From: Buttiauxella agrestis
GTDB taxonomy: Bacteria > Pseudomonadota > Gammaproteobacteria > Enterobacterales > Enterobacteriaceae
NCBI RefSeq assembly: GCF_900446255.1
Contig: NZ_UIGI01000001.1
Location: 4,552,763-4,616,762 of the forward strand
Length of the DNA stretch: 64,000 nucleotides
Direction of reading: 5' to 3'
The notes under the pieces: generated by a model
Seen by the model: the letters and a program-made list of their open reading frames with translations, nothing else
Told to the model about the DNA's origin: nothing
Databases searched by the model: none
Position numbers and translations under genes: made by a program
Part shown: positions 3,817-45,842 of the stretch, in pieces
Numbering within the stretch: position 1 is the first letter of the stretch
Layout: each line of letters opens with the position of its first letter

Positions 3817-6800
3817 ATGTCGACACAAAGAAGAGACAACCCCACCCGCCCTCGCCATCACCGTTTCGCTCTGGAGCCACGACAATTGTTCGATGGCGCA
3901 GCCGTCGCTGAGGCCGCAAGCCATGCGGATAACTCGCCAGACGCGCAGCATCACAATAATGCGCCGGACGCCTCGAAAGCGGTGATTGTGCCGCAATCAA
4001 CCGCCCCTGCTCCGGCGTCTATTACCGCGCCCGCGCCTGCACCTGCTGACGCCCCTGCTCCGCACGAGGTTTATGTTGTCGACAGCCACGTGCAGAACTG
4101 GCAGTCGCTGGTCAGCCAGTTGCCAGAGGGCAGTCGCGTGCTGGTGCTGGACTCAAAGCAGTCCGGGCTTGAGCAGATTAATGACGCCCTAAAAAACGAT
4201 AAAAATATCAGCGCGATTCATATCATCAGCCACGGCGCGAGCGATGAAATCACTCTCGGTAGCGACAAACTTAACGATAAAACGATTGCGCAGTATCAGC
4301 AGCAGCTAGAAAAACTGGGCGAAAAGCTCACGAGTGATGGCGATATTTTGCTGTATGGCTGCAATGTCACCGCGCAAGATACCGTGCTCATTACGCGCAT
4401 GGCGGATTACACCCATGCGGATGTGGCGGCGTCGAATGACGAAACCGGCAGCGCGGCAAAAGCCGCAGACTGGACGCTTGAGTCCAGCACTGGCGTCATT
4501 GAAACGCGCTCGTTATCCCTGGCTTATGACGGGGTTTTACAAGCGCCGGAAATCACCACTCGCGTGCCGGATATGGTGGTTTCGGAGCCAAGCACACTGC
4601 GTCCGGGCGCTGAAACCGGGAGTTTCAGTGGTTTAACGCTTAACGTCAGCGATGAAAACGTCGCGATTAGCGTGAGCTTAACGAATGCTGCCGCCGGGGA
4701 TTTGGTTAACGGTGCAACGTCCGGGAAAACCCTGGAATTCGTCGGGAGCGTGGCGGATGCCCAGGCCTGGCTTAACTCGCTGAAATTCACCGCCAGTGAT
4801 ACCGAACTGGGGCATCAGTCGGCCTCAACCGATGTGCAGTTTTTTGTCCTCACTCTTTCCGGTAACGACAGCCTGGTCACGCACATTTCGATTACGCCAG
4901 CCAACGACCCGGTCACGGTCGCCGACAGCACGCTCATCGTGCCGGAAAGAAACGGTTCGGGCACCGTGATTACTGAAGCTACGCTCGCCGCACTCGATCC
5001 TGAATTACAGATTGGCGCGCAAAGCGCATCGCAAATTGTCTACAGCCTGACGGCAATGCCACAATACGGTTATCTGACGCTCAACGGCACGCGCCTGGGC
5101 GTGGGGTCGGTGTTTACTCAGCAAAACGTGCGCGACGGTGCGCTGAAATATGTTCACACCGCGACGGGTGACACGCAAAACACCGCCGACGGGTTTTCCG
5201 CCAAAGTGAACGACGGTGCAACGCCCATCGGCCAATCCGACACCGTAAGCGTCACGCTTGAGATTGCCCCAGAAAACCAGCCGCCCACCATTAGCGGCGG
5301 GGGCATTGTGTATGAAGGCCAGCCGCAAAACGCAGCCAACACGGGGAATGTCGGGCAGTACATCGTGGCCGAAAGTGGTGGCGATACGCAGGACATCACT
5401 CTCACGCTAACCATTACTGCACTGCCCGCTCACGGCACACTTTATTTTAAGGGCGTACCGGTCACACAAGGCCAGCAGTTCAGCTATGCCGAACGCAATT
5501 TTTTGACCTATGAAAATGACGGCCAGGATAACGTAGGTACGGATTCATTCGGCGTGACCGTGACTGACGAGGGCGGTGGTACGGCTACGTCTGCCAGCAG
5601 CGATGCCATCATCAAGCTGGATATTCAACAGGTGGATGACGACCCGTTCCTTGATACCGACTCCAGCCTGCATGCCGATGTGGTGCCAGGCCCGGCTGAC
5701 GTGGTGCTTACGCCCGAAATGCTCACCAGCCTGGATACCGACTCCTCGGCCGATCGTGTCAGTTTTATTGTGGATACCGCCGGGCTGACGCACGGTTATT
5801 TGACGCTCAACGGCTTGCTGTTAAAGACCGGCGACACCTTCACCATGGAAGACGTGATTGGCGGGAAAGTCGCGTATACGCAGTATCTGAATGCGCAACC
5901 GGGCGGCATCGACGTGTTTAACTTCCGCGTGATTGACCACTCCACCGCGCTGCGCTGGAACCCGGACGGCACCACATTTACCCGCCAGGGCGGGATTTGG
6001 GACGGCGAGGCGGCAAGCAGCCAATTAACCCATTTCCAGTTCACAATTGGCCTGGTGCGCCTGGCAAACAACCCGACGCCGGATAACGTCCCGCCGTGGA
6101 GTATTCCCGACAGCACCAACAGTTCAGGGTACATCGGTACGGATGTCACCAATCCCACGCTGCCGCCGCATGGTTCGATTAACGAAGGCGGCTCGCTGGT
6201 GCTGTCTGGCACCGGAAACATCTCCGACGCCACGCCGGGCATGAGTTATGTGGTGCAAGGGATTAGCCCGGATCAAATTGTGTACACCTATCTCGGGACC
6301 GATGCGGGCCAAAGCGGCCTCACCATCATGAAAAGTGATGGCAACGGCGGCATGGTCGCGGTTAACGCGTTTGGTTCTTTCACCCAGGCCGAACTGGATG
6401 CAGGCCTGGTGCGCATCGTTCATGACGGTGGCGAAAACTTCGAGTTTAATGCGCGTTTCTCCGTTTCCGCAGGGCAAGTCACGCTCGACGCCAATGGCAA
6501 CCCGGTGGCAGTGACCTGGAATCCAGAGCTTAAAATTTTCGTCACTCCGGTTAACGATGCGCCCGTGATTACAGGCTCATCCAACACGGTTCTGGCAGAA
6601 GGCGAAACGGTGTATATCACCACCTCGCAGCTGAATTTAAACGACCCGGATGACGCCAATAGCGGCTCGCCGTGGGAAAACATCGCCAATATTAATGGCA
6701 GTAATAACTACGCACTCAATAACGAAGTTGTCGGAGCTAACGCCCTAAAAATTGTCTTCCAGTCGCTGCCAACCGGTGGCGTGTTGCAGTATTTCAATGG

Positions 6801-9800
6801 CACCAGTTGGGTCACGATCACCAGCGCCGATATCGGTACGCTAAAACTCGATGCCAGCCTGCTGAAAAACGATAACAGCAGCGGGCTGCGATTTGTCAGT
6901 AACGGATCTGAAGTCCGCAGCACCAGCTTTATTGTCTCGGCGGTGGATCGCTGGGGTACTGCGTCTGCGGCCAACGCGACGGTGGGGATTATCATCACCA
7001 ACGTTAACGATGGCCCGATGATCCCGGCAACGCCTGACAGCCCGGATATCACCGTGCCGCCGGACTCGCCCAATAACATCGGCGGTCAGCCCGCCAACAA
7101 CCCGGCTACGGTGGTGGAAGGCGGTTACGTCCAGCTCGACAGCTCCCAGCTTCAGGCCTACGACCCGGACAGCTCGCCCGAGCAGGTGCAATATACGGTT
7201 TCCACCGTCCCGGCTCACGGACGCCTGGCGTACTCCACCGACGGCGTGAATTTTAGCTTCCTCGGCAACGGCTCCACCTTTACCCAGGCGGACATCAACA
7301 ATGGCCGTATTTACTACCTGAACAACGGCGATGAGGCAGCAGGCAGCGGTCTGAATGCCGATGGTTTTAACTTCACGCTTTCGGATGGCGACAAAGAGCA
7401 ATCGGGGAATCACTTCGCGATTAATGTCACGCCGACCAACGATAAACCCACCGTCACCGCGCCTTCTGGCCCGATTGATATCGGCGGCAGCTCACACGCC
7501 GTCAACGGTTTTACCGTGGCCGACCCGGATATCGCAAGCGGTTCAAGCGCCACCAATATCCTCGAAACCACCGTGCGCTTACTGCACAGCAATGGCAGCG
7601 CCTTTAGCCAGGCCGAATACAACAACATCGTGCTGACGGCGGCGGTAAACACCGGAGCGACCGTCACAGGCGGTATCAATGGCTATCTGGTGATCACCGG
7701 AACCGTCGCCCAGATTAACGCGGCGCTGGCGGGATTGACCGTCACCTTCCCTGATGATCGCAACGCGCAATACCAGGTGCAAGTCATCACCGATGACCGC
7801 CTGCGTGATACCAACGGTAATTTAGACGGGGCGGCTAACGGCGGCCCGGTAAACCAGCCTGCGACTCCGGCATTCGGCACCCCGCCCGGCGCGGTTGATG
7901 GCACCACTTACAACTGGTATCTGGCTGGCGTTCCCGCCAGTAACGGCAACATCTCCGCTAATCAGGTGGTGATTAACGCCTCCGAAACCAATGACCCTGG
8001 CACCCTGGTGGTCGGTAACACCGACAAAACCACCTTTGAAGATCAGCCGACGATTATCGGGGGTGATATCACCATCGCGGATGACGAGTCAGCGGCTTTC
8101 GGCAAAAACGTGACCGTGACGTTGACCGTCGCCCAGGGCCAGCTGGGGATTGCAGGCGCAGATGACAACAGCGGTTTTATTATCGATGGCGTCACGATTA
8201 CGGGCGATAACAGCGGGCAACTCGTGCTAACCGGCACCGCCAGCGCCATTCAGGCGTTGCTCAATGACCCGACCCGTGGCCTGACTTACCTCAGCGATAA
8301 AGATGCCAACCACGATCAAAACGCGGCGGCGGCAGGCGATGTGACGCTCAATATTCATCTGGATACCTCGGCGTCTAGCGTCGGGAACACTATCAGCGCA
8401 GTACCAGCAGATGTGCAAATCGCCATTACCATTACGCCGGTGAACGATGCGCCAACCGTGACCGCGCCAACAGACACGATTCTGCTTGATAACAACGCGC
8501 CCGGTGGCAACAGCGTCGGCGGTTTTGTGATAAGCGACCCGGATGTTTCGGATGCGGGCGGCATTGCGACAGGCGAACAAAATATCGTGCAGGTGACCGT
8601 TCGCATCACCGATCAAAACGGCAACCCATTCCTGGTTGGGCAGTATCGCGACCAGCAAAACTCAGCGGTGAATATCTCCTCGCTGAACACCACCTCGGGT
8701 GTGACGGTGCAATCCACCAGCCCGGATGGCATCAACCCGCCGGCAAATGGCGTGAATGCGCCGCTGGTGATCACCGGTACCATCGACCAAATCAATGCTT
8801 ATCTCGCGCAATTGCAGGTGAGAATGAGCGGCATCGAGGTGGATGATGCTGACCAGTATTTCCGCGTCGAAGTGATTGTTGATGACCGCATGCGCGATGC
8901 AAACGGCAGACTGACGACCGGTGCCAACGGTGGGGATAATGCCAATCCTACAGGCGATGGGACTTCACCCGTTCCGACTACTGATACCAGCCCTTACGCT
9001 AAAGTCCCAACCGGGCTTGAGCTAAACGTTGCCACCACGTATCGCACCGTTTTCCAAAGCAGTATCAACGACCCGGCGCATATCGATCTGGGCGGCAGCC
9101 CGGTGCTTAACACCGATGAAAACAACGCCACGGTCACGCTGCCACCGATCACCCTCAGCGATGTGGATGCGGGCAGCCAGACCATGACGGTGACGGTTAA
9201 GCTGCCGAACGGATTTACCTTTGTCGCGCCAACCGGCAGCGGCGGCACCGTCACCGGAGCAGGCACCGACACGCTGACGTTTACCGGCTCATATGCGCAA
9301 ATTAATACTTACCTCGCGGGGCTAAAAGTCTCGCTGCCTGACGTACCTGGCAGTGCCGCGGCGTCGGACTGGAACGGCAATTTTGGCGTGACGGTGGCGG
9401 TCAACGATGGCGGTAACTCCGGTTCGCGCCCGGGGACATTACCCAATATGACCGATCCTAATTCCGACCCAGGCCAGGTCGAATACGAAGATGGCCCTGG
9501 CGGCACCTCGTCGGCACTGATCACAACGCGCACCTTTACCTTCACGGTCAATCCGGTGAATGACGCGCCCGTGGTCGTCGGCACGCCGACGGTGACAATC
9601 CCGACGCTCGAAGAGGACACGCTCGGGAGTTCAGTTAGCGGTCAAAGCGTTAACAGCCTGTTTAGCGGATTCTTCAACGACCAGCACGACACCGTGGATA
9701 ACAGCACCAATGGCGGCGCGGGCGGCTCCCTGGCGGATAACTTCTACGGCGTGGCTATCACGCAATTAACCACCAACGCCGCTCAGGGCGAATGGCAGTA

Positions 9801-12800
9801 TTCGCTCGATGGCGTGAACTGGCTTGCCGTGGGCAACCGCAGCGACAGTAACGCGTTAATCCTGACGGCCAGTTCGTCACTACGCTTTGTGCCTGCGCCA
9901 AACTATTTTGGCAACCCGGCAACGCTGGGTGTCCGGCTGGTAGAAACCAACGCCAACGGCGATATATCTTCCACGCCGACGGTTCTTCCCAACGGCAGCG
10001 TCACCGATATCAACACCACGGGCGGGCATGGCGGCACCTCAATCTACAGTGAAACCGTCATCACCCTCAGCACCGTCGTCACCAACATTAACGACCGCCC
10101 AACGCTGGGTGATAAAACGCTGACTATCGCCGAAGACACCAACGGCACGCAGACGGTCGGGCAACTTTTCCAGTCGGTTTATGGTGATGCCACCGATAAC
10201 CAGACCGCGATTGCAGGCGGCGGAAACGCCAGCGGCGCCCTGAGTTACATCGCGATTTACGCCAATGACACCGATGCCAGCAAAGGCCAATGGCAATATT
10301 TTGATGGCACCACCTGGCAGGCGATCCCGTCCGATCTGGGTGAGAACCGCGCCTTTGTGCTCGCCAGCACCACGCAGATGCGCTTTGTGCCGACCGCCGA
10401 TTACAACGGTTCAGTCAGCGGCGGCCTGCATTTGCGCGCCTCCGACACCACCGACACCACCGCCAACGGGATCTTTAGCGGTCGGGTGAATTTCTTCGAT
10501 TTTGCTCGCGATAACGACCCGACTTCGCACTGGTCAAATACCGCGACGCTGGGTGTGAACATTACGGCAGTGGCTGACGCGAACAACGACAGCTTCACCA
10601 CTCACGCCAATGTGCCGCTGATTAAAAATGCCAGCGACCTGCTGGCTAACGACTCGTTTACCAACGCGGATAAAACCGTTACCACGGTGACGCAACCGAC
10701 AAACGGCACGCTGACTTACGTCGGCGGCGTGCTGACGTATACGCCAAACCAGGGCTTTGTCGGCACCGATTCTTACACCTACACCGTCACCAGCGGCGGC
10801 GTAACGGAACAGGCAACGGTGACAATTAATGTCACCAACCAGGCGCCGATTGTTGCCAACGAAAACCAGACGCTTAACGAAGATACGTCGGCCTCGGGCA
10901 ACGTATTAACCAATGACCGCGACCCGGATGGCGCCGTCGATACCCTCACGGTGAAAACCTTCACCGTTGAGGGGCAAACCTACACCGCGGGCACCACCGT
11001 GACGCTGGCAGACAGCCACGGAACCCTGACCGTTAATGCTAATGGGACGTACAACTACACCCCAGGCGGCGACTGGCACGGCGATATTCTGGTGAGCTAT
11101 GTCGTGACCGACGGCAACATGAACGGTGACAAAACCGCGACGTTAGGGCTGCACATTGCCGCCGTAGACGATGCGATCGATAACATCGAAAAAGAGCATA
11201 CCGGCACCGTCATTACGACCGATGTGCTGGCAAACGATAGCTTTATAAACTCGGATCGGGCCGTCACCGATTTCAGCCAGGGTACGCACGGCACCGTGAC
11301 TCGCGGCCCCGGTAACTCGCTGATTTACACCCCGACGCCGGGCTATGTCGGCCAGGACAAATATACCTATACCGTCACCAGCGGCGGCGTTACCGAAACC
11401 GCCACGGTGTTTATTCTGCTGACCAACACACCGCCCACGCCGACCAAACAGTTAGCGTCAACGCCGGAAGATACGGCGCTCAATGGCGACGTGCTGCATA
11501 CCATTGTTGACCCCGATAACGACCCGTTGCACGTGACCGATTTCCAGATTGCGGGAATCACAGGAACATTCCAGGCGGGCGATAGCGTCGTTATTGCCGA
11601 TAAAGGCACCTTTATCCTGCGCGCCAATGGCACTTACACCTTCGTGCCGATTGCCGACTGGAACGGCAAAGTGCCGATTATCACGTTTAGCGTGTCGGAT
11701 AATACCTTCGACCCGCCGACCCAAAGCACCCTGGAAATCACCGTCACGCAGGTTCAAGACGCCGTGAATGACTCGGTATCCACGCATGCCGGGACACCTG
11801 TCACCATTAACGCGCTAAACAACGACCGTTTCAGTAATGCCGACGCCACCATCACCGGCACCGGTGTGCCTGCGCATGGTTCGGTGAGTATTGTGAATAA
11901 CCAACTGGTTTATACGCCGGATGCGGGTTATGTCGGCGAAGATTCCTTCACCTACACCGTCACCAGCGGCGGCGTCACTGAAATCGCGACGGTCACGGTC
12001 ACGATGACCAACGCCGCGCCGACGGTGCCGAATGTGTATATCACCACCACGGAAGACCGCCCGATCCTCGACACCCTGCTTGGCGGTGCGACGGATGGCG
12101 ACAACGATAATCTGAGCATTGTTAAATTCACGATTAACGGCACCGATTACGCGGCGGGATTGACCCCGGTTGATATCCCCGGCATGGGCCGAATCACCAT
12201 CACCCAGGAAGGGCTGTATTTATTTACCCCGCTCGCTGACTGGAATGGCATCGTGCCGCCAATAAACTACACCGTGAGTGACGGCAACCAGGGCGGCGAA
12301 GTCAGCAGCACGCTGGTGATTACCGTGACGCCCGTGGTGGATATTCAGGCAGACCAGGCCAGCACGCACTCTGATGACGCCGTCATTATTAACGTATTAG
12401 CCAATGACACCTTCACCAACGCCGACCGCCAGGTCTCGGTTTCCGGGATCAGTGCGCAAGGCGGCAGGCTGGAAGTGCTGTCGGATAACACGGTGCGTTA
12501 CTCGCCACCTGCGGGCTACTCGGGGCGCGATAGCTTCACCTATACCGTCACCAGCGGCGGCATAACTGAAACCACAATTGTCTCGATTCTGGTCACGAAC
12601 ACGTCACCACTGAGCGGCAATATGCAGCTCGTCATGAACGAAGACGGCGCACCGCTTACCGGCCTTTTGAATGTGACCGATCCGGATAACGACGTATTGC
12701 GAGTGACGTCATTCCAGATTGACGGCATAACCACGCCATTCACGGTGCCGGATAACGGTGTTCCCGTCAGCGCTGACATTGCAGGTGTCGGGGTCTTCAC

Positions 12801-15800: not shown

Positions 15801-16521
15801 TAGCACGGGCATCATTGGCGGCAATACCTCCGGGCAATACGGCACGCTGACGCTCGACAACCAGGGCAACTGGCGTTACCAGGTGAACAGCAGCGACCCG
15901 CGTGTGGCAGCCCTTGAAGCCAATGCGTCGTTGAGCGAAGTGTTCGTTTACACCATCACCGACAGCGACGGGAACACAAGCGAAGCGCGTCTGACCATTT
16001 TGATTCATGGCATCACCGCCATGCCAAACACCGACAACCGGGACGGCGACCAGATTTTCGGTCGCGAAGAAGAGGAATTGCTGCCGCCTTATAGCCAAAG
16101 CTACGAGCCGGGCTTGTTTATTCTGCCGTTGGTCTATGATTTACAAAGCGATTCAGTGGGTCTGCAAACTCGCCTTAACAGCCGGTTTGCCGCCTACGGT
16201 TATGGCATCGAACATGCCAATGCGCCGGTCATGCAACAGGCGGTGCTGTTCTCGCGTTGGTACAACGACACGCGTGAACAACGCACGCTGCCAGGCCTTG
16301 AAAGCAACGGTCTGGGGCAAAACTCGCTGGGGAACTCATTTGGCCCATTCGCCGTAGGGCAGCCTGAAAAAGCCGTTGAACCACCCGTTGAACAAACCAT
16401 TGAACAACCTCCGGTTATCGCACTGGGGGCACAACCGCTCACGGCGCAGCTCGCGGCTTTAGAGAAACACACTTTGGCATCTGGAAAACACATTGCGGTC
16501 CCGACAATGACTCGCCGGTAA
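3817..16521 (+). CDS. Giant cadherin-like repeat surface protein with N-terminal LEPR motif and DUF4347
   Basis: A 4234-aa protein (estimated over 400 kDa). There is no Sec signal peptide; the N-terminus is basic and carries FALEPRQLFDGAA (residues 17-29), the LEPR-XLL-type motif found at the start of many giant exported proteins. A Pro/Ala-rich linker is followed by a DUF4347 domain (about residues 85-245; HIISHGAS and LLYGCNV motifs). Then come about eight divergent cadherin/Ig-like domains marked by xPVNDAP-type junctions (about 260-2260), eight tandem 194-201-aa units (about 2260-3720), a ninth partial unit, and a VCBS-like domain (about 3940-4065). The C-terminal 165 residues are non-repetitive. 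Acidic DxD/DPDGD calcium-type motifs are frequent, but no RTX nonapeptides were seen. Four export-type genes follow directly. The likely role is a surface or biofilm adhesin; receptor and function are inferred only. Confidence 0.85.
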   Translation: MSTQRRDNPTRPRHHRFALEPRQLFDGAAVAEAASHADNSPDAQHHNNAPDASKAVIVPQSTAPAPASITAPAPAPADAPAPHEVYVVDSHVQNWQSLVSQLPEGSRVLVLDSKQSGLEQINDALKNDKNISAIHIISHGASDEITLGSDKLNDKTIAQYQQQLEKLGEKLTSDGDILLYGCNVTAQDTVLITRMADYTHADVAASNDETGSAAKAADWTLESSTGVIETRSLSLAYDGVLQAPEITTRVPDMVVSEPSTLRPGAETGSFSGLTLNVSDENVAISVSLTNAAAGDLVNGATSGKTLEFVGSVADAQAWLNSLKFTASDTELGHQSASTDVQFFVLTLSGNDSLVTHISITPANDPVTVADSTLIVPERNGSGTVITEATLAALDPELQIGAQSASQIVYSLTAMPQYGYLTLNGTRLGVGSVFTQQNVRDGALKYVHTATGDTQNTADGFSAKVNDGATPIGQSDTVSVTLEIAPENQPPTISGGGIVYEGQPQNAANTGNVGQYIVAESGGDTQDITLTLTITALPAHGTLYFKGVPVTQGQQFSYAERNFLTYENDGQDNVGTDSFGVTVTDEGGGTATSASSDAIIKLDIQQVDDDPFLDTDSSLHADVVPGPADVVLTPEMLTSLDTDSSADRVSFIVDTAGLTHGYLTLNGLLLKTGDTFTMEDVIGGKVAYTQYLNAQPGGIDVFNFRVIDHSTALRWNPDGTTFTRQGGIWDGEAASSQLTHFQFTIGLVRLANNPTPDNVPPWSIPDSTNSSGYIGTDVTNPTLPPHGSINEGGSLVLSGTGNISDATPGMSYVVQGISPDQIVYTYLGTDAGQSGLTIMKSDGNGGMVAVNAFGSFTQAELDAGLVRIVHDGGENFEFNARFSVSAGQVTLDANGNPVAVTWNPELKIFVTPVNDAPVITGSSNTVLAEGETVYITTSQLNLNDPDDANSGSPWENIANINGSNNYALNNEVVGANALKIVFQSLPTGGVLQYFNGTSWVTITSADIGTLKLDASLLKNDNSSGLRFVSNGSEVRSTSFIVSAVDRWGTASAANATVGIIITNVNDGPMIPATPDSPDITVPPDSPNNIGGQPANNPATVVEGGYVQLDSSQLQAYDPDSSPEQVQYTVSTVPAHGRLAYSTDGVNFSFLGNGSTFTQADINNGRIYYLNNGDEAAGSGLNADGFNFTLSDGDKEQSGNHFAINVTPTNDKPTVTAPSGPIDIGGSSHAVNGFTVADPDIASGSSATNILETTVRLLHSNGSAFSQAEYNNIVLTAAVNTGATVTGGINGYLVITGTVAQINAALAGLTVTFPDDRNAQYQVQVITDDRLRDTNGNLDGAANGGPVNQPATPAFGTPPGAVDGTTYNWYLAGVPASNGNISANQVVINASETNDPGTLVVGNTDKTTFEDQPTIIGGDITIADDESAAFGKNVTVTLTVAQGQLGIAGADDNSGFIIDGVTITGDNSGQLVLTGTASAIQALLNDPTRGLTYLSDKDANHDQNAAAAGDVTLNIHLDTSASSVGNTISAVPADVQIAITITPVNDAPTVTAPTDTILLDNNAPGGNSVGGFVISDPDVSDAGGIATGEQNIVQVTVRITDQNGNPFLVGQYRDQQNSAVNISSLNTTSGVTVQSTSPDGINPPANGVNAPLVITGTIDQINAYLAQLQVRMSGIEVDDADQYFRVEVIVDDRMRDANGRLTTGANGGDNANPTGDGTSPVPTTDTSPYAKVPTGLELNVATTYRTVFQSSINDPAHIDLGGSPVLNTDENNATVTLPPITLSDVDAGSQTMTVTVKLPNGFTFVAPTGSGGTVTGAGTDTLTFTGSYAQINTYLAGLKVSLPDVPGSAAASDWNGNFGVTVAVNDGGNSGSRPGTLPNMTDPNSDPGQVEYEDGPGGTSSALITTRTFTFTVNPVNDAPVVVGTPTVTIPTLEEDTLGSSVSGQSVNSLFSGFFNDQHDTVDNSTNGGAGGSLADNFYGVAITQLTTNAAQGEWQYSLDGVNWLAVGNRSDSNALILTASSSLRFVPAPNYFGNPATLGVRLVETNANGDISSTPTVLPNGSVTDINTTGGHGGTSIYSETVITLSTVVTNINDRPTLGDKTLTIAEDTNGTQTVGQLFQSVYGDATDNQTAIAGGGNASGALSYIAIYANDTDASKGQWQYFDGTTWQAIPSDLGENRAFVLASTTQMRFVPTADYNGSVSGGLHLRASDTTDTTANGIFSGRVNFFDFARDNDPTSHWSNTATLGVNITAVADANNDSFTTHANVPLIKNASDLLANDSFTNADKTVTTVTQPTNGTLTYVGGVLTYTPNQGFVGTDSYTYTVTSGGVTEQATVTINVTNQAPIVANENQTLNEDTSASGNVLTNDRDPDGAVDTLTVKTFTVEGQTYTAGTTVTLADSHGTLTVNANGTYNYTPGGDWHGDILVSYVVTDGNMNGDKTATLGLHIAAVDDAIDNIEKEHTGTVITTDVLANDSFINSDRAVTDFSQGTHGTVTRGPGNSLIYTPTPGYVGQDKYTYTVTSGGVTETATVFILLTNTPPTPTKQLASTPEDTALNGDVLHTIVDPDNDPLHVTDFQIAGITGTFQAGDSVVIADKGTFILRANGTYTFVPIADWNGKVPIITFSVSDNTFDPPTQSTLEITVTQVQDAVNDSVSTHAGTPVTINALNNDRFSNADATITGTGVPAHGSVSIVNNQLVYTPDAGYVGEDSFTYTVTSGGVTEIATVTVTMTNAAPTVPNVYITTTEDRPILDTLLGGATDGDNDNLSIVKFTINGTDYAAGLTPVDIPGMGRITITQEGLYLFTPLADWNGIVPPINYTVSDGNQGGEVSSTLVITVTPVVDIQADQASTHSDDAVIINVLANDTFTNADRQVSVSGISAQGGRLEVLSDNTVRYSPPAGYSGRDSFTYTVTSGGITETTIVSILVTNTSPLSGNMQLVMNEDGAPLTGLLNVTDPDNDVLRVTSFQIDGITTPFTVPDNGVPVSADIAGVGVFTLTSDLKYTFKPVADWNGIVPQISYTVTDDNGGAIVVGKIDIAVNPVKDIADDYVTMHAGTSATTDVFANDTFVNPDKEISDLGTAKFGTVKLSPDGKSIVYTPAPAFVGNDSYTYTVTSGGITETATVYITVTNAPPVAQPDVNAGDEDTTLAGNVLTNDTDADNLPAVQDTLTVTGFTLAGDSLSRVVGSPVFISGQGQFTLNADGTYTFVPVKDWNGTLPVITYQISDGRNGGTSSSTLTLTVTPVQDIARDSATTHAGTPVVIDVLANDTFENSDHQITATTNGLHGTTTIVNGKVVYTPVAGFVGTDIFGYTVTSGGVRETTFVTVNITNTASQAADDSNATPEDGMASGNVLTNDSDADNDKLTLTGFTVDGTTIYSAGGALNIPNMGVLVMQADGNWTFTPVADWNGTLPEVTYFVSDGNNGGESEAKLRVIITSVKDAFDDNVTVHGNTSVTTDVFANDTFANGDKIIQSVTQGSHGTVSIVNGKITYTPNVGYVGADTYTYTVLSGGIIERATVNVTVENTLPVTRPDLNITPEDNVVSGNVLNNDTDPDGDPLTVTQFSVGGQTAPAGYPVIIAGVGEFTLRSDGSYTLTPIADWNGVVPTVTYTVNDALIGGTSTGTLNIIISPVADINADDSTVHAGNAVTTDVLANDNFENPNAIITAVTNGENGSAVLQPDGQITYTPRAGFVGTDTYTYTVTSGGVTETTTVTVHVINSAPVVSPEGVITPQGDAVSGNVLTNDSDPDGDPIHLSSFQFGGQRYAAGETAVLAGVGSLTVLRDGSYTFTPVSSKFGFVPPVSYTVSDGNEGGETNGTLRILVAPSVEIQVRESGLTPLDPGAQEVSGTLDVLSLDKLRTLTFQGRVITAEQLLQLNPLSPITIETVTGTITLLAYYSPADGEGRIDYRFTLRGAVSQPGFVSTHNDYAVQVNGATIGQLRITVFNDSPTATDDNAEILQDQGQESASGNLFNDDRIGADGAASNGPVTGVSSENTGSTGIIGGNTSGQYGTLTLDNQGNWRYQVNSSDPRVAALEANASLSEVFVYTITDSDGNTSEARLTILIHGITAMPNTDNRDGDQIFGREEEELLPPYSQSYEPGLFILPLVYDLQSDSVGLQTRLNSRFAAYGYGIEHANAPVMQQAVLFSRWYNDTREQRTLPGLESNGLGQNSLGNSFGPFAVGQPEKAVEPPVEQTIEQPPVIALGAQPLTAQLAALEKHTLASGKHIAVPTMTRR
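10590..14965 (+). repeat. Eight tandem ~590-bp coding repeats in the giant adhesin
   Basis: Each unit ends with a segment like YTYTVTSGGVTETATV. The serine codon in TSGG recurs at about 10792, 11380, 11965, 12553, 13156, 13756, 14338 and 14920, giving periods of 588, 585, 588, 603, 600, 582 and 582 bp. Every period is a multiple of three. Within a unit a DWNG-containing cadherin-like half (GNVLTNDxDPDxD ... ADWNG ... YTVSDG) alternates with a half containing VLANDTF and YTPxxGFVGxDTYTYTVTSGG. Nucleotide identity is highest over the TSGG block. Confidence 0.85.
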
Positions 16522-16531
16522 AGGCTTTAAG

Positions 16532-18454
16532 ATGGAAATAACAACGATGAACGCATACGTGATAACTGAACAAAAAAAACGTGGCGTGCCGTTAGTCAAA
16601 CCTGTTGCCGGGTTGATTGCGGTGCTGATTTTGGCAGGCTGTGGCACCATTAAACCGGAACCGCTCTCTCAGGATGAAATAACCGCGCGAGTGAATCGTG
16701 ACCGGGCAGAAATGTACCGTGGGCAGGAAGCACTCAGCGGCCCCATGACGTTGTCCGACGCCATGGCGCGCGCGTTGAAATACAACCTCGACTACCGTCT
16801 GAAAATGATGGAAACCGCGCTGTCGCGCAGTTTGCTGGATGTTTCGCAACAAGACATGCTGCCCAAACTGATGGCAGATGCGGGCTATCGCTGGCGCAAT
16901 AACGACTCCGGCGGCACCAGCGTCGGCATCGATGACGGGCTGGTCAGCTTGCGTCCGTCCACGTCCGAAGAGCGCGAACATTATCTTTCCAGCGCCACCT
17001 TCTCCTGGGATTTGCTCGATTTCGGGATGAGCTACTTCCGCGCCAAACAGCAGGCCGATGAAGTCAACATTGCCGAAGAACGCCGCCGTAAAGTGCTGCA
17101 AAACATCGTCCAGGAAGTGCGTGATGCCTACTGGCGTGCGCTGGGTGCGCAGCGTTTACTCGACGAAACTCAACCGCTGGCCGAGCAAATTGCCCAGGCG
17201 CTGGATAAAACGCGTGAGGCCGAACAGGCCGGGATCCTGCCGCCAATCGAAGGGCTGGAATATCAACGCGCCCTGCTGGATGCCATGACCTTGCTGAACC
17301 AGAAGCGCCAGCAAATGGAGCTGGCGAAAAGCGAGCTGACGGCGCTTATCAACTTGCCGCCAGGCACGCCGCTGGTGTTGCAGGACACGCCAACACCGCT
17401 GGCTCCGGCACCGACAAATATCGATAAACTTGAGCAAATGGCGCTCGAACGACGCCCTGAGCTGCGCGAAGAAGATTACAAAACGCGTATCGACAGTTAC
17501 GAAACCAAGCGCCAGATCGCCTCATTGTTCCCGAGCCTGAACTTGTTCGCCGGGCTGAATTACGACTCTAACGATTATCTCTACAACAATGACTGGATTG
17601 AAGGCGGCGTGGGTGTCTCGATGAACCTGTTTAAACTGCTGAGTATTCCGGCCATCAGTAACGCCAGCGATGCCCGCGCTCAAACCGACGACGCTCGCCG
17701 TATGGCGCTGAGTATGGCGGTTCTGACCCAGGTGCGTGTAGCAACCGAGCGCTACAAACTCGCCTCGTATGACTTCCAGATTGCCGAGCAATCCGCGCAG
17801 GTGGACCAACGCCTGGCGAGTATTTCCCGCGCCGGATCTGACAACTCGCTGACCAGTGACCTCGAAACATTGCGTACTCAGGCGCGTTCGATTGTGTCGC
17901 GCTTCCAGGAAGCCTCATCGTATGCCGAAGCCCAGGCCGCTTACGGGCGCGTACTGAACTCCGTGGGGATTGACTTACTGCCGGATCAGGTCGCAAAAAC
18001 CGACGTTGCCAGCTTATCGCGACAAATCGCCACCAGTTTGCGCCAGCAAGAGAGCAGCGTGTTTGCGCGTACCGCAGGCATCAGCGTGGAAAAACATCCG
18101 ATTGCGATTCAGATTACGCGCGTGCCGTCCGGCGTGTCGCGTGGTGCTGTCGAACAGTCGGTTGGCCGTGTGATTGAAGCCAATCACCTGTCGCTGGAAC
18201 CGTCGCCAAACAGCCTAAATCTGCAAATGAGCTTTAGCACCGGAGCCAGCAGCGGCACGCGCAAAGGCGTGTGGACGATGCGCGTGAAAGATGCGACCGG
18301 AGCCGAAGTGCTGACGCGCCAGTACACCAGTTATCTGCCAAACGAAACCAGCACACGTTCCATTACCGCCCTGGCAGAAGCCGCGACGTTATCCATTACC
18401 AGTGATTTGCAGAGGCTCGCAGGAGCACCCCCTGTTCTGACCGCGACGCCATGA
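16532..18454 (+). CDS. TolC-family outer-membrane factor, lipoprotein type, with extra C-terminal domain
   Basis: 640 aa. A lipobox LAGC (Cys37) predicts an outer-membrane lipoprotein, as in CusC/OprM-type factors. Residues of about 70-500 show the repeated helical-hairpin TolC fold, with MTLSDAMARALKYN at the start and a second half beginning around RRPELREEDYKTRID. About 140 residues follow the TolC core (roughly 500-640), containing SVEKHPIAIQITRVPSG and a VWTMRVKDATG strand pattern; this is not normal in TolC proteins and may be a periplasmic docking domain. The start follows the adhesin stop by 10 bp with AAGG at 16521-16524, so translation is probably coupled. It should form the outer-membrane duct for the giant protein. 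Confidence 0.82.
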   Translation: MEITTMNAYVITEQKKRGVPLVKPVAGLIAVLILAGCGTIKPEPLSQDEITARVNRDRAEMYRGQEALSGPMTLSDAMARALKYNLDYRLKMMETALSRSLLDVSQQDMLPKLMADAGYRWRNNDSGGTSVGIDDGLVSLRPSTSEEREHYLSSATFSWDLLDFGMSYFRAKQQADEVNIAEERRRKVLQNIVQEVRDAYWRALGAQRLLDETQPLAEQIAQALDKTREAEQAGILPPIEGLEYQRALLDAMTLLNQKRQQMELAKSELTALINLPPGTPLVLQDTPTPLAPAPTNIDKLEQMALERRPELREEDYKTRIDSYETKRQIASLFPSLNLFAGLNYDSNDYLYNNDWIEGGVGVSMNLFKLLSIPAISNASDARAQTDDARRMALSMAVLTQVRVATERYKLASYDFQIAEQSAQVDQRLASISRAGSDNSLTSDLETLRTQARSIVSRFQEASSYAEAQAAYGRVLNSVGIDLLPDQVAKTDVASLSRQIATSLRQQESSVFARTAGISVEKHPIAIQITRVPSGVSRGAVEQSVGRVIEANHLSLEPSPNSLNLQMSFSTGASSGTRKGVWTMRVKDATGAEVLTRQYTSYLPNETSTRSITALAEAATLSITSDLQRLAGAPPVLTATP

Positions 18455-18461
18455 GGCTTTT

Positions 18462-19358
18462 ATGAATACAAAAACAATGGTGGATGACGCTACGCTTATC
18501 CACCCTACAAAACATGCGAATCATTTTCGTCCGGTGAATACATCCTTGAATGGTCTTCGTAGGTCGGATAAGCGCAGCGCCATCCGACAAAAATTTATCG
18601 CCGGGTTAATCTGCGCCCTTTCCTGCCTGGCTGTTCCTGCGTTTGCCCAGGACGGTAACACCCAGGTGCGCTTCCTGGTACTCGCCAACCGCGAAAGCCC
18701 ACTTTCCAGCGTGGTTCCCGGACGCATGGCGAAAATCAACGTGCAGCTCGGCGATTCGGTCACGCAAAACAAAGTGCTGGCGACCATGGACTGTAGCGAT
18801 TTGGTGGCGCGTAAAAATGCCGCCGAAGCGGAATATCACGCCGCGCAATTGCGTTACGAAGCCAAAGCAAAACTGCAAGGTTTGCAGTCTGCCGCCGCAC
18901 TGGAAGTGGGTTTAGCCGCCTCCGAAGTGAACCGTACCAAAGGCCAGATGGGAATTTTTGACGCCCAACTGGCGCAGTGCAAATTCATCTCGCCGTTTAA
19001 CGGACGGGTGGCGAAAATCTACGTCAAAGAAGGTCAGGGCATTGGGGCGGGAGCACCGGTGATTGATCTCGTCGGCAGCGGCACATTGCGCGCGCGTTTA
19101 AACGTGCCATCAAACTGGGTGGCGTGGCTGAAAATTGGCTCGCAGCTGAATGCCTCGGTCGGCGAAACGGGCAAACAATATCCGCTCACCGTGACCAACA
19201 TCAGCGGCAAAGTGGACGCCGTCAGCCAGACCATCGAAATCGAAACCCGCTTCCCGGAAAAAACGGACGACGTGCTGCCAGGGATGAGCGGGCAAGCCGT
19301 GGCAATTTGCCCGCCGGATGAAAACCGTTGCCTGAAAAGCGGAGCTGCAAATTCGTGA
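18462..19358 (+). CDS. Periplasmic adaptor (HlyD/RND-adaptor type) with REP-encoded N-terminal extension
   Basis: 298 aa. From about residue 63 on it is a soluble adaptor: barrel-sandwich halves (SSVVPGRMAKINVQLGDSV and FISPFNGRVAKIYVKEGQG) around a short helical hairpin, then a beta-barrel domain (LRARLNVPSNW). It has a Sec signal sequence (hydrophobic core 45-58, cleavage after VPAFA), but the n-region is about 43 residues, very long. Residues 6-15 and 34-43 are encoded by two REP-like palindromes. The ATG has a good GAGG site at 18453-18456 and follows the previous stop by 7 bp; a TTG at 18546 could give a normal-length signal peptide. The likely role is to bridge inner- and outer-membrane parts of the export complex. 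Confidence 0.8.
   Translation: MNTKTMVDDATLIHPTKHANHFRPVNTSLNGLRRSDKRSAIRQKFIAGLICALSCLAVPAFAQDGNTQVRFLVLANRESPLSSVVPGRMAKINVQLGDSVTQNKVLATMDCSDLVARKNAAEAEYHAAQLRYEAKAKLQGLQSAAALEVGLAASEVNRTKGQMGIFDAQLAQCKFISPFNGRVAKIYVKEGQGIGAGAPVIDLVGSGTLRARLNVPSNWVAWLKIGSQLNASVGETGKQYPLTVTNISGKVDAVSQTIEIETRFPEKTDDVLPGMSGQAVAICPPDENRCLKSGAANS
18479..18588. repeat. Pair of REP-like palindromes inside the adaptor coding sequence
   Basis: Element A at 18479-18504 has arms GGTGGAT and ATCCACC around a GCTACGC core. Element B at 18563-18588 has arms GTCGGAT and ATCCGAC. Both are followed by ACAAAA-type tails. Copies of the same two families occur between genes at 29921, 38973, 39010, 48614 and 48660, where they are intergenic or touch only a gene end. 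Confidence 0.85.
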
Positions 19359-20707
19359 CTTCCCCAACAGCCTTCTACCAGCTTGCTGCAAGGGTAGAAG
19401 CGATAAGCCACTCCACAGAGTTAGGCTTCGCGATATGTAATGAAACACGCCAACTGGTGGAATATCGCCAGGCGGCGCTGCTGTCCCTCAGTGCAGCAAA
19501 CCGCGCAAAACTGGTTGCCCATTCCGGGTTAAGCGATACCGATAACAACACGCCGTACGCCTTGTGGCTGGCGGATGTGGCCAAAGAAATCGCCCCCCAT
19601 TGCCGGGCGCTGCCGCCCGAAGCCCGCGTGCTGGCACTGGCACCGGCACAACTCAGTGAACCCCTCGCCCACCAGTGGAGCGAATGGCTGCCGCCGCACG
19701 TTTGGGTGCTGCCGTTAACCGGTGCCGACGGCGAAATTCACGCGCTGTGGTTTTTAGGGCGCGATGAAGCCTGGCCGACCTCGCTTGCCCCGGATTCACC
19801 GGAATTTGCGCTACTGCAACTGAGCGGTTTATACGGATACGCCTGGTGGGCGTTGACCGCAAAACCCTCGCGCTTCCGACAATTCTGGCAGCGTAATACC
19901 GGGCGGCGTCTGGCTTATATCCTGCTGGCGATTGTGCTGGTGATGTGTATTCCAGTGCGGGAATACACGCTGGTTCCCGCTGAAATTATCTCGCTACAAA
20001 GTGAAGTGATTGCCGCCCCGGATTCCGGCGTGATTCAACGCATGGTGGTTTTGCCTAACAGCGATGTGAAGAAAGGCCAGGTGCTGGCGACGCTTGACGA
20101 CACCACGCTGCACAACCGTCTTGCAGTGGCGCAGGCGGAACTGGAAACCGCGGAAACCACGCTGCATCAGGCTTCGCAACAAGCCATTGAAGATCAGCAG
20201 GCGAAATCAGAACTGGCGATGGCAGAAGGCAAATATCGCGAGAAAAAAGTCGAAGTCGAGTCGATAAAACGCGATCTGGCAAAACTGACGATTCGCGCCC
20301 CCGGCAACGGCGTGTTTGTCTATTCCGACCCGGATGACTGGGCTGGCCGCCCGGTACAGACCGGCGAGCGCATTGGTTTACTGGCCGATCCGAACAATTT
20401 AGGCGTTCGCGCCTGGGCGCCGGTGAGCGAGTCCACCAACCTTGATCACGGTGCGCCGATGAAAGTGTTTTTGAAAGTCGCGCCGCTGGACTCGTTTACC
20501 GCGAAACTGGATTACGCGGGCTATCAAACCGTCGAAGCGCCGAACGGCATCGCCAGTTATCTGCTGCGCGGCACGCTTGATGGCAAACCGGCTGTGGCGC
20601 GTATCGGCTTGCAGGGGACGGCTCGCGTGACGGGCGACTGGGCGCTGCTCGGTTACTTGCTGCTGCGCCGCCCCATCGCCACATTACGTGCCGGGAGCGG
20701 CTGGTGA
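19355..20707 (+). CDS. Inner-membrane HlyD-like adaptor with cytoplasmic GAF-like N-terminal domain
   Basis: 450 aa from a GTG start that overlaps the previous stop (GTGA) and is preceded by GGAG at 19341-19344. The first 165 residues form a soluble, probably cytoplasmic domain that looks GAF-like (ELGFAICNETRQLVEYRQAALL ... WVLPLTGADGEIHALWFLGR, quoted in part). One transmembrane helix follows (about 186-201), then a periplasmic barrel-sandwich segment (VIAAPDSGVIQRMVVLPNSD), a coiled-coil hairpin of about 60 residues, and the returning half (LTIRAPGNGVFVY). Domain order is that of HlyD-type adaptors of type I secretion, but the large N-terminal domain is unusual and could sense or bind a ligand or the substrate. 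GAF assignment is by pattern only. Confidence 0.75.
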   Translation: MTSPTAFYQLAARVEAISHSTELGFAICNETRQLVEYRQAALLSLSAANRAKLVAHSGLSDTDNNTPYALWLADVAKEIAPHCRALPPEARVLALAPAQLSEPLAHQWSEWLPPHVWVLPLTGADGEIHALWFLGRDEAWPTSLAPDSPEFALLQLSGLYGYAWWALTAKPSRFRQFWQRNTGRRLAYILLAIVLVMCIPVREYTLVPAEIISLQSEVIAAPDSGVIQRMVVLPNSDVKKGQVLATLDDTTLHNRLAVAQAELETAETTLHQASQQAIEDQQAKSELAMAEGKYREKKVEVESIKRDLAKLTIRAPGNGVFVYSDPDDWAGRPVQTGERIGLLADPNNLGVRAWAPVSESTNLDHGAPMKVFLKVAPLDSFTAKLDYAGYQTVEAPNGIASYLLRGTLDGKPAVARIGLQGTARVTGDWALLGYLLLRRPIATLRAGSGW

Positions 20708-22809
20708 TCAACGCCGCTGCCACCGCTCCACCGTGGCCCGCGCTGCGCGATGAACTGCGCCTCAACAGCGCGGGCAGCAACCGCGACGGTTCCCCGGCGT
20801 GGCATTTATCAGACCCGGTGCGAAACCTGTTTTTCCGTCTCGGCTGGCTGGAAATTGAAATTCTTAAGCGCTGGCAATTAGCCGATGCAGGGAAGATCGC
20901 GCAGGCGATTAATCAGCAAACCACGCTGAATGTCGAAGAAGACGATATCAAAGCCTTTGTGCTGTTTTTGCAGCAACAGCAACTGCTGCGCACCGCCCGT
21001 TTTCGCCCGGCATCTTCGGCGTGGAAATGGCTGCTGCACAGCTATTTGTTTATCCGCATTCCGCTGGTTCACCCGGAAAAAGCCCTGCGCAAAGCGCTGC
21101 CGTGGGTGCAACCGCTGTTCAGCAAAACCTTTCTTTGGCTGACGCTGTTTGTGGCAATTACCGGTATTGTGCTGGCGGCTCGCCAATGGGATACCGTCGT
21201 CGCCACGCTGCATAATTCGGTGAACTGGCACGGTGCCGTAGCGTTTGCCATCGCGCTGGTATTTTCCAAATGCTGGCACGAAATGGGCCACGCGCTGACC
21301 GCCACAAAGCATGGCGTGCGGGTCGGGCATATGGGCGTCGCACTGTTGGTGATGTTGCCGATGGCCTACACCGACACCGGCGAAAGCTGGAAACTGATTC
21401 GTTCGCGCGACCGGCTAAAAATCGCCGCCGCCGGGATTGTTTCTGAGCTGGTGCTGGCGGCGTGGGCGACGTTGCTGTGGTCATTCGCCCCCGAAGGCAG
21501 CGTGAAAAACGCGCTGTTTTTCCTCGCCACCACCGCGTGGATTATGACGGTGGTGGTCAACGCCAGCCCGTTTATGCGCTTCGATGGCTACTACATTCTG
21601 AGCGATATTCTCGACTTTCCAGGCCTCCACGAGCGCGCCGGAAACTGGGCGAAACGGGCGATGCGCTGGCATTTGTTTGGCATCAACGACCCAAAGCCCG
21701 ATAACGTCACTCCGGCCTTCGCCCGCTTTCTGACGGTATTTGCTTTCGCGACCTGGATTTACCGCCTGCTACTGTTTATCGGCATCGCGGTGTTGGTCTA
21801 TCACGCCTTCTTTAAGGCGCTGGGCGTAGTGCTGTTTTTAATAGAGATTGTGACTTTTGTGGTGCAGCCGATGATCAGAGAAATCAAAACTATTTGGGCG
21901 CGTCGGCAGGAAAGCCAGCCGTTTTATCGCCGCAGATTACTGTTGATTACCGCCGTCGTGTTGCTGGCCATTTTTGTGCCGTGGTCGAATAAAGTGAGCC
22001 TGCCGGGCGTGATTGAAGCCGGTTTTGTGCAGCCGATTTATACGCCTTACAGCGCAAAACTTGAGAAGGTTTTTGTCACCGACGGGCAAGAAGTGAAAGC
22101 CGGGCAACCGCTGTTTGAGTTGATAGCCCCGCTGCCGGAAACGTCGCAGCGCAAGGCCGAAGAGATGCGCCGAGCCTGGGAATTCAGCGCGCGGGGTGCG
22201 TTGGGTCTGGATAAAGACGGCCCGGCAAAACAGGTGCTGGCAGACCAAATGGCACGCCAGTATTCGCTCCAGCAAAGTGCGGGCAACAGCGAATTGCTGC
22301 GTCTGCGGCTGGTGGCGGCGTCTGCGGGAAGGATTGAAGACCGTGATTTATCGTTGCAGCCTGGAAGCTGGGTTTCGCCAACGTCGCACATCGCGACCCT
22401 GGTGAATGCCGATCGTTGGCGAGTGAAAGCGCTGGTGGGCGAGGAAGATCTGGCGCGATTACGGGTGGGTTCACCCGCCAAAATTTATCAGAACGGTGAA
22501 TGGCATCCGCTTATCGGGCGTGTGGTTTCTATCGATCATAACGTGGTGACGCGCCTGCCCTCGCTGCTGCTGGCTAAAGATCATGGCGGGCCGGTGCAGC
22601 TTAACCCGACGGCTCAGGCAAAAGATCTGCGTCCGCAAGGCGTGTGGTATCGCGTGTCGATTGAAGGTGACGGGAAAACGACGCAGCTAAATCGGGAGAA
22701 TCTCGCCGAAATCTCAGTTGAGAGCCAACGCCAGAGTCTCGCGCATCGCTGGTTTAATAGCGTGTCATTGATGTTAATTCAGCAGACGGGAATGGGGAAA
22801 GACGGGTAA
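20704..22809 (+). CDS. PqqD-like / M50 zinc metalloprotease / HlyD-like fusion protein
   Basis: 701 aa from a GTG start overlapping the previous stop by 4 bp. Residues of about 30-105 resemble a PqqD-type winged helix (LSDPVRNLFFRLGWLE ... LQQQQLL). Several membrane helices (about 140-400) carry the site-2-protease signature: HEMGH at 192-196 and, distally, NASPFMRFDGYY with Asp294 as likely third zinc ligand. After a further helix (about 415-435), residues of 450-560 form a barrel-sandwich segment typical of HlyD-like adaptors (YTPYSAKLEKVFVTDGQEVKAG), then a beta-barrel region. All catalytic residues seem intact. With the preceding genes it forms an export-like complex; whether the protease cuts the giant protein or some other partner is unknown. 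The family is known from genome surveys, but I know of no assigned mechanism. Confidence 0.8.
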   Translation: MINAAATAPPWPALRDELRLNSAGSNRDGSPAWHLSDPVRNLFFRLGWLEIEILKRWQLADAGKIAQAINQQTTLNVEEDDIKAFVLFLQQQQLLRTARFRPASSAWKWLLHSYLFIRIPLVHPEKALRKALPWVQPLFSKTFLWLTLFVAITGIVLAARQWDTVVATLHNSVNWHGAVAFAIALVFSKCWHEMGHALTATKHGVRVGHMGVALLVMLPMAYTDTGESWKLIRSRDRLKIAAAGIVSELVLAAWATLLWSFAPEGSVKNALFFLATTAWIMTVVVNASPFMRFDGYYILSDILDFPGLHERAGNWAKRAMRWHLFGINDPKPDNVTPAFARFLTVFAFATWIYRLLLFIGIAVLVYHAFFKALGVVLFLIEIVTFVVQPMIREIKTIWARRQESQPFYRRRLLLITAVVLLAIFVPWSNKVSLPGVIEAGFVQPIYTPYSAKLEKVFVTDGQEVKAGQPLFELIAPLPETSQRKAEEMRRAWEFSARGALGLDKDGPAKQVLADQMARQYSLQQSAGNSELLRLRLVAASAGRIEDRDLSLQPGSWVSPTSHIATLVNADRWRVKALVGEEDLARLRVGSPAKIYQNGEWHPLIGRVVSIDHNVVTRLPSLLLAKDHGGPVQLNPTAQAKDLRPQGVWYRVSIEGDGKTTQLNRENLAEISVESQRQSLAHRWFNSVSLMLIQQTGMGKDG

Positions 22810-27297: not shown

Positions 27298-27386
27298 TGA
27301 CAAATATGAACGACTTCTGACATTTTGCATTTACTTTGACGTGTTCAACTGGCAGCAATCGAACCTTCACCCGCAGGAGTCGCGCC

Positions 27387-29898: not shown

Positions 29899-29920
29899 CA
29901 CAACACAACAATAGTCGTAG

Positions 29921-29947
29921 GTCGGATAAGCGTGAGCGTCATCCGAC
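29921..29947. repeat. REP-like palindrome between permease and binding-protein genes
   Basis: Arms GTCGGAT and ATCCGAC around AAGCGTGAGCGTC, in the 72-bp gap inside the operon. Such elements commonly stabilise upstream mRNA, which could set different levels of transporter parts. Confidence 0.75.
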
Positions 29948-29970
29948 AAAACCAGACAGGAGATTTCACC

Positions 29971-30903: not shown

Positions 30904-30908
30904 TTTTC

Positions 30909-30989
30909 CCCTCACCCCAACCCTCTCCCAAAGGAGAGGGGGAAGACCGACCTGTTCCCTCTCCCTCAGGGAGAGGGCCAGGGTGAGGG
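30909..30989. repeat. 81-bp long palindromic repeat with nested stems
   Basis: Outer arms CCCTCACCC and GGGTGAGGG enclose two inner hairpins, CCCTCTCC...GGAGAGGG and CCCTCTCCCTCAGGGAGAGGG-type. It lies between the binding-protein stop and the isomerase Shine-Dalgarno. This C/G-rich element type is widespread between genes in proteobacteria. It could attenuate or stabilise the operon transcript. Confidence 0.75.
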
Positions 30990-31007
30990 TTGTTGAAAGG
31001 AGACAAA

Positions 31008-31691: not shown

Positions 31692-31727
31692 TTTCCAACA
31701 ATTTTTCCAACACCAGGGGAAACTATT

Positions 31728-32588: not shown

Positions 32589-32597
32589 GGAGAGGTT

Positions 32598-34575: not shown

Positions 34576-34617
34576 TAGAAAGCGGCAAGGTAAGTAATAT
34601 TGACTGGAGCAACACTG

Positions 34618-45838: not shown

Positions 45839-45842
45839 CTAT

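Follow-up and report, generated by a model that had tools for sequence, protein, structure and literature searches.

The DNA analyzed here is a 64,000-nucleotide stretch of the Buttiauxella agrestis genome (contig NZ_UIGI01000001.1; hereafter, the window), which carries a five-gene locus for a giant repeat protein and a set of envelope proteins ending in an M50 metalloprotease fused to an HlyD-type adaptor. The gene set is conserved far from its source, its giants share an N-terminal leader whose form tracks with the machinery encoded beside it, the zinc site of the fusion is conserved, and the family divides into a branch with a SecA-like ATPase and a branch without one, to which the window belongs. 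From these sequence patterns, we favor, at somewhat better than even chance, a system that would export one giant repeat protein across two membranes, directed by the leader and passing through the M50/HlyD base, without an ATP-binding cassette (ABC) protein. We give roughly even weight to a wider proposal, namely, that the two branches form a previously unrecognized two-membrane pathway. Here, an LExR leader would be taken up by a base that combines a RiPP recognition element (RRE; RiPP, ribosomally synthesized and post-translationally modified peptide) with M50 and HlyD parts and serves as receptor, protease, and tunnel, with one branch pushed by SecA and the window branch lacking a dedicated nucleoside triphosphatase. 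This proposal ties together the SecA-linked, type I-like locus described in 2015, the LEPR-XLL motif, and giant repeat proteins without a signal peptide. The locus makes it possible to ask directly whether a protein thousands of residues long can pass through two membranes with no ABC transporter, and what would push it.

The gene set is conserved and lacks an ABC transporter

Type I secretion of giant adhesins such as LapA and SiiE employs an ABC transporter, an HlyD-type adaptor, and a TolC-type channel. The initial annotation of the window had described five genes at positions 3817 to 22809, encoding a giant protein, a TolC-type lipoprotein, a soluble adaptor, an HlyD-like adaptor, and the M50/HlyD fusion, as an export locus from which the ABC gene is missing. 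The open reading frame (ORF) list agrees with this gene set and with its tight packing (gaps of 10 bp and 7 bp and a 4-bp overlap at 20704). None of the five genes encodes an ABC protein, and the fusion stands where an inner-membrane transporter would be expected. Like type I systems for giant adhesins, the locus combines a giant repeat protein, an HlyD-type adaptor, and a TolC-type channel, yet it has no ABC transporter and adds an N-terminal leader, a protease fusion, and a total of three proteins with HlyD-type domains (P0003, P0004, and P0005).

A scan of genome contigs with the fusion confirmed at least 582 relatives, the best 80 of which were used as loci; 38 of these 80 span less than 22 kb and therefore have truncated flanks. 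The TolC, adaptor, HlyD, and M50 genes are contiguous in 65 of the 80. Fourteen of the remaining 15 lack a TolC, adaptor, or HlyD gene in the available stretch, some of them at contig ends, and the last has the giant interposed. When neighboring genes (ORFs of at least 90 aa) were clustered, the giant's family recurred in 59 of 86 loci, as against 8 for the family that ranked second, which leaves no other conserved gene as a candidate engine. The arrangement is therefore not a matter of chance, and the five-gene order, whose conservation had been left to be checked, is kept far beyond the source genome. Because the giant is the sole widely conserved neighbor, there is also no ABC gene that always lies just beyond the locus. 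No exporter-type ABC protein was recognized in the best 80 loci, seven of which have weak ABC matches (E of 4e-5 to 2e-18).

Among 72,556 plasmid records, 76 have a match to the fusion, and 51 of these cover at least 80% of its length. The giant, TolC, adaptor, HlyD, and M50 genes stand in the same order in five of six plasmid loci, the giant being split in two of the five, and on pMSR-1 (Magnetospirillum) a short ELWxxDGT protein occupies the giant's place. Among 398 sampled Pseudomonadota genomes, 91 have a fusion match, and 76 of the 91 are of the window type (more than 590 bits). DUF4347, a domain of the giant, falls in M50-positive genomes in 74 of 93 occurrences; 19 genomes have DUF4347 without this machinery.

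Giants in two ORFs are found on a Citrobacter plasmid and a Caballeronia plasmid (L257 and L003), with the leader retained on the N-terminal piece in both. At four window-branch loci (L079, L080, L054, and L091), the giant (a large frame in L054 and L091) directly precedes the HlyD and M50 genes, and the stretch holds no TolC or soluble adaptor gene.

The leader of the giants tracks with the machinery

Window-branch giants begin with a variable, often basic stretch, followed by LExR-x-x-[F/L/Y]-D-[G/A] and an Ala-rich stretch. LExR followed by [FLY]D is present in all 36 window-branch giants with a readable start, drawn from two sets of stretches (29 and 7). The larger set comes from 40 stretches beside window-type M50 genes, of which 1 was nonexistent, 6 were too short, cut, or misplaced, and 4 showed no giant; 8 of the 40 were set downstream of the M50 gene because a DUF4347 or LEPR-XLL match lay there. 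Its 29 leaders were found by pattern (27) or by eye (2), and all 29 again by script. Across both sets, the script recovered 35 of 36, the leader of L215 being masked by a shadow frame. As background, the motif occurs in 1 of 1363 ORFs of 200 to 899 aa, and that single ORF begins a broken giant; among the larger ORFs (at least 900 aa), where unrelated large ORFs and shadow frames are also counted, 47 of 152 have it. We used this written motif and background count because the NCBIfam LEPR-XLL model (NF012209) is too weak for the window's giant (P0001). Applied to five leader peptides, the model left P0001 unmatched and placed three of four relatives over its cut-off (two SecA-branch, one window-branch) and one under it.

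The giant had been described as lacking a Sec signal, and hydropathy is in accord. Over 40 leaders, hydrophobicity stays below that of a Sec signal, the best 15-residue window having a median of 1.0 and a maximum of 1.9 versus 2.3 to 2.4 for P0003 and P0002.

Leaders of the SecA branch have S at the key place, mostly as LLS[AG][DE], in 16 of 18 cases, the exceptions being G144 (N) and G272 (D). These 18 comprise 15 readable leaders from 16 stretches at linked places (L273 was unreadable) together with L179, L193, and L204; because the LEPR-XLL model served to find them, their resemblance to that model is in part a product of the selection. Leader type tracks with branch: FD[GA] without SecA, mostly LLS[AG][DE] with it. 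Three genomes (G007, G015, and G303) have both types, each beside its own machinery; in G007, LEPRWMFDGAG lies by the SecA-free set and LEDRILLSAES and LEPRFMLSGEG by SecA sets. LEPR-XLL frames fall largely in M50-positive genomes (57 of 64; Fisher P of 6e-37, relatedness ignored), and 5 of the 7 outside them are short frames resembling chance matches. Such a frame lies within 20 kb on the contig at 19 of 43 secondary SecA places and is lacking at 24, partly perhaps because of contig ends. SecA-linked giant frames have a median length of 10,081 aa (n = 18) and window-branch frames one of 3,376 aa (n = 16), but the latter come from 20-kb stretches that leave out long giants (frames to 7,695 aa exist), so no conclusion on a length difference is drawn.

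One LEPR-XLL leader (G062:C115:112865, L280) stands in a 19,427-aa open frame on a contig for which no secondary SecA is listed.

A sister branch carries a SecA-like ATPase

The weaker M50 matches form a second branch. This published branch, the leader shared by the giants, and the PqqD-like N terminus were not noted in the initial annotation. In loci picked by M50 alone, a SecA_DEAD gene lies beside the M50 gene in 14 of 20, and the window-type P0004 profile matches the corresponding gene in most SecA loci. A domain scan of a single SecA-like protein showed that it retains the DEAD, P-loop, and preprotein cross-linking domains; of 33 such proteins, 32 have one of the two ATPase motif types searched for and 31 have the other. 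In four named plasmid examples, the genes for the giant, the HlyD proteins, M50, and the SecA-like protein adjoin in similar order. The giants of Pontibrevibacter and Pseudosulfitobacter are annotated "LEPR-XLL domain-containing," with genes that span 31.8 and 38.8 kb.

In an M50 tree of 75 rows (quick method, unrooted), all 37 window-type rows, thinned from 88, lie on one side of a branch with a Shimodaira-Hasegawa-like approximate likelihood ratio test (SH-aLRT) value of 99. The window type is thus a separate, SecA-free clade in this tree, on which the SecA label requires four changes. The 32 SecA-positive rows are enriched, since L178 to L196 were chosen for a secondary SecA, and the unbiased figure is the 14 of 20 given above. 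Six SecA-free rows are not part of the window clade. Three of them (L161, L173, and L174) are nested in the SecA branch, two (L175 and L176) are adjacent to that branch, and the sixth, the long branch L177, is adjacent to the window clade. No SecA_DEAD gene was found in the window locus (ORF list) or as a conserved member of window-branch loci; a 98-aa edge fragment in L093 (E of 9e-5) is the only SecA match near the 80 loci.

A small DUF3467 gene directly follows the giant at three of the four named SecA-branch plasmid loci (L259, L260, and L262). Five other loci of this branch (L178, L180, L184, L187, and L192) adjoin large ORFs with haemagglutinin-like N termini and a gene of ~680 to 700 aa, which we take to resemble two-partner secretion. 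The SecA-like frame of L172 (G168) is 1329 aa, which may reflect a fusion or a frame read too long.

The fusion has a conserved zinc site and a putative PqqD-like N terminus

HExxH is present in all 125 fusion-family proteins checked. A distal NxxPxxx[LFYM]DG motif is present in 122, and the other three have DA instead of DG. These motifs are characteristic of M50 site-2 proteases, which cleave membrane-associated substrates. Since the two motifs are retained across the 125 proteins, proteolysis is probably part of the fusion's job. The M50 part matches daptide and epipeptide maturation proteases at an E of 6e-50, with 170 bits versus a cut-off of 300.

PqqD-type domains bind leader peptides in RiPP pathways. 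SecA-branch M50 N termini match PqqD at an E of 1 or better in 20 of 33 cases (best, 9.5e-9), and two named SecA-branch M50 proteins are annotated as PqqD family. A profile of this N-terminal region, searched against PDB, matched the RRE-type TfuB1 and a PqqC/D protein (E of 0.012 and 0.061). The window-branch and SecA-branch M50 profiles align end to end (hhalign; residues 9 to 695, 689 columns, probability of 100).

Searches for ABC and SecA motors

The search for a second SecA covered 80 of the 91 M50-positive genomes (8 of low completeness and 3 weak ones were left out). No second SecA_DEAD match was present at an E of 1e-8 in 46 of the 80, and 43 of these 46 are of the window type. The ABC search covered 44 genomes, namely, 41 of these 43 (G001 was treated separately and G204 left out) and 3 of the other type only. 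The initial annotation had allowed for either a different engine or an ABC protein borrowed from elsewhere and had called for a check of co-occurring ABC genes. An LssB-type ABC gene does score over the family cut-off in 20 of the 41 window-type genomes; 21 have no type I ABC over the cut-off, which makes borrowing unlikely. Three genomes of one genus (G065, G089, and G177) have no ABC match at an E of 1e-85, a threshold that a control E. coli genome passes; matches near it are therefore no evidence of a type I secretion ABC protein. The M50 frame of G065 is interrupted by two stops and may therefore be nonfunctional. In G024 and G211, both listed with completeness of 100, the M50 gene is accompanied by a giant with a leader, a single SecA, and a single ABC match at 1e-87 to 1e-93. 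G001, the nearest genome, has two complete LssB-type type I loci elsewhere, each with its own HlyD and TolC genes, and one SecA (904-aa frame). A second weak match there, L009, was not counted as SecA and is presumably a RecG-like helicase.

Within the window, an ABC ATPase gene lies 4.5 kb downstream of the locus (27336 to 28910). It was rejected as the exporter, since its two ABC_tran stretches are followed by a BPD_transp_2 permease and Peripla_BP_4, an importer set. On the plus strand, this region (27336 to 33605) runs from the double ABC ATPase, BPD_transp_2, and binding protein genes to a class II aldolase and a PfkB kinase.

Proposed mechanism and alternatives

We infer the following scheme. 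The giant's leader (basic stretch, LEPRQLFDGAA, and Ala-rich stretch) would be bound in the cytosol by the PqqD/RRE-like N terminus of the fusion. A tunnel through the inner membrane and periplasm, leading to the TolC-type lipoprotein, would be built from the membrane domain and HlyD arm of this protein together with the soluble adaptor and the second HlyD-like protein. The M50 site may cut or clear the leader during or after passage, and no ABC protein would take part. In the sister branch, the push would come from the dedicated SecA-like ATPase. Given the absence of a SecA-like gene in the window branch, the push there would most likely come from housekeeping SecA or the proton-motive force, helped by folding outside. 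As a matter of judgment, we consider housekeeping SecA somewhat more likely than the proton-motive force alone.

Several points weigh against this scheme. No motor was identified for the window branch, PqqD was not directly recognized there by Pfam (1 of 62 members, E of 0.2), and the PDB matches of the SecA-branch N terminus are weak. The giant was not seen in 4 of 33 informative stretches (L222, L229, L243, and L256), G272 breaks the leader rule with a D in a SecA-linked leader, and the leader of P0001 falls below the NF012209 model. The LssB-type ABC genes of G001 and of 20 of the 41 other window-type genomes count against it as well, and would fit an ordinary type I system that lost the ABC gene from its operon and borrows a type I ABC protein from elsewhere in the genome. 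We regard such borrowing as improbable: both ABC genes of G001 have HlyD and TolC genes of their own beside them, 21 genomes have none over the cut-off and the three of one genus none at 1e-85, the matches of G024 and G211 lie close to a threshold also passed by the control E. coli genome, and in the sister branch a SecA-like ATPase takes the place of an ABC protein.

LapG/LapD-type systems control adhesin retention and release by other means. Here, the leader could serve surface retention rather than export, and the giant might cross by Sec or another route while the M50/HlyD set controls its retention or release without inner-membrane export. A conserved N-terminal tag and a conserved protease would also fit cleavage-controlled release. 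We find this account unlikely, as the leader region falls short of Sec signals in hydrophobicity and the giants are accompanied by envelope genes, one for a TolC channel among them. The likeness of the M50 part to daptide and epipeptide maturation proteases (170 bits, cut-off of 300) and the fact that PqqD/RRE domains belong to RiPP systems would suit instead an exporter of small molecules or RiPPs to which the adjacent giant is incidental. This we hold to be very improbable, because apart from the giant no neighbor of the machinery is widely conserved (59 of 86 loci for the giant versus 8 for the next family, among ORFs of at least 90 aa, a smaller precursor gene not having been looked for) and DUF4347 falls in M50-positive genomes in 74 of 93 cases.

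Relation to known systems

A "secondary SecA_DEAD" locus was described by Kamneva, Poudel and Ward in 2015 (PMC4452313), with SecA_DEAD proposed as the ATPase, M50 as the pore, and the role given as unknown. In the passages available from that paper, the locus resembles that of the window in having an M50/HlyD protein, an HlyD adaptor, and sometimes an OEP, with no ABC protein, and its GAF/HlyD protein may correspond to P0004; the window branch differs in having no SecA_DEAD gene. Those passages name no substrate, leader, PqqD domain, giant, or SecA-free branch, and the passages available from PMC8277102 contain nothing on such a system. The LEPR-XLL (LEPR-8K) model NF012209 shares with our leaders a short LExR motif near the N terminus of very large proteins, although the corresponding residues differ, being FD[GA]A in the window branch and mostly LLS[AG][DE] in the SecA branch. 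The sister locus and the LEPR-XLL motif are thus each already known, separately. In the literature searched, which includes little from subscription journals or preprints, we found no description of the SecA-free branch, of the leader-giant link of both branches, or of the branch-specific leader types.

Daptide HExxH and YydH-LiaK intramembrane metalloproteases act in peptide maturation and, to our knowledge, have no HlyD part. The M50 membrane domain of the fusion resembles them (NF041824 and NF058609) at scores far below the cut-offs. Likeness to PqqD and RREs lies in the N-terminal region of the SecA branch; here, the region is fused to M50 and HlyD parts, and its proposed ligand is the giant's leader. 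RTX repeats are common, though not universal, in type I substrates, and RTX/HemolysinCabind is absent among the giant's 8 Pfam matches. Substrates of this kind also carry an uncleaved secretion signal at the C terminus; the leader described here is N-terminal. An assignment of the giant as a BapA/Bap/LapF adhesin (NF045619) was rejected at 114 bits versus a cut-off of 180.

Features of the locus and its surroundings

The folds of the fusion P0005 and of P0004 rest on sequence profiles (Table 1). The earliest possible start of P0004 is a TTG at 19328 (ORF 19328 to 20707), and the GTG at 19355 gives a 4-bp GTGA overlap. Hydropathy scans place a single hydrophobic segment in P0004 (residues 198 to 216) and five strong ones in P0005, which the initial annotation had described as a six-helix protease. 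A GAF-like N-terminal part is found in few relatives of P0004 (3 of 59 window-branch members score) and not in P0004 itself. The lipobox of P0002 reads LAGC, and C37 is invariant across 7 aligned sequences.

TABLE 1 Genes, domains, and motifs of the giant-protein locus in the window
Feature	Position	Strand	Basis or description
Giant substrate (proposed) P0001, 4234 aa	3817-16521	+	DUF4347 and cadherin/Big_9/tandem-95 (Ig-type) repeats (Pfam, NCBIfam)
Leader motif LEPRQLFDGAA, giant residues 19-29	3871-3903	+	Written motif
DUF4347 of giant, residues 85-232	4069-4512	+	E of 2.2e-47
TolC/OEP-type outer-membrane lipoprotein P0002, 640 aa	16532-18454	+	OEP E of 3e-37; lipobox
Soluble periplasmic adaptor (RND/HlyD type) P0003, 298 aa	18462-19358	+	Domains; signal-peptide-like N terminus
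HlyD-like adaptor P0004	19355-20707	+	N-terminal part of ~190 aa, one membrane segment, HlyD part
M50/HlyD fusion P0005, 701 aa	20704-22809	+	Peptidase_M50 and HlyD; proposed inner-membrane base and leader receptor/protease
Putative PqqD (RRE)-like N-terminal region of fusion, ~residues 12-105	20737-21018	+	Profile alignment with SecA branch
HEMGH zinc motif of fusion, residues 192-196	21277-21291	+	Motif
Distal motif NASPFMRFDG of fusion, residues 286-295	21559-21588	+	Motif
HlyD periplasmic part of fusion, ~residues 444-615	22033-22548	+	Domain match

A convergent gene for a hybrid histidine kinase lies downstream of the five-gene locus. Farther along, at 34600 to 36765 (plus strand), a molybdopterin oxidoreductase, presumably formate dehydrogenase-like, is split by one in-frame TGA (residue 146 from 34600). 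With an Rfam SECIS_2 match at 35030 to 35084, this reads as a selenoprotein gene. Genes for a Wzc-like kinase and a Wza-like export lipoprotein occupy 43685 to 47429 (minus strand), a capsule or colanic-type region of low GC content (~0.44). A 548-aa ORF at 61033 to 62679 (minus strand) has no Pfam match at an E of 1e-5 and adjoins BNR-repeat, DHDPS-like, and FGGY-kinase genes. An Rfam match to the small RNA sraL is located at 53358 to 53500 (plus strand).

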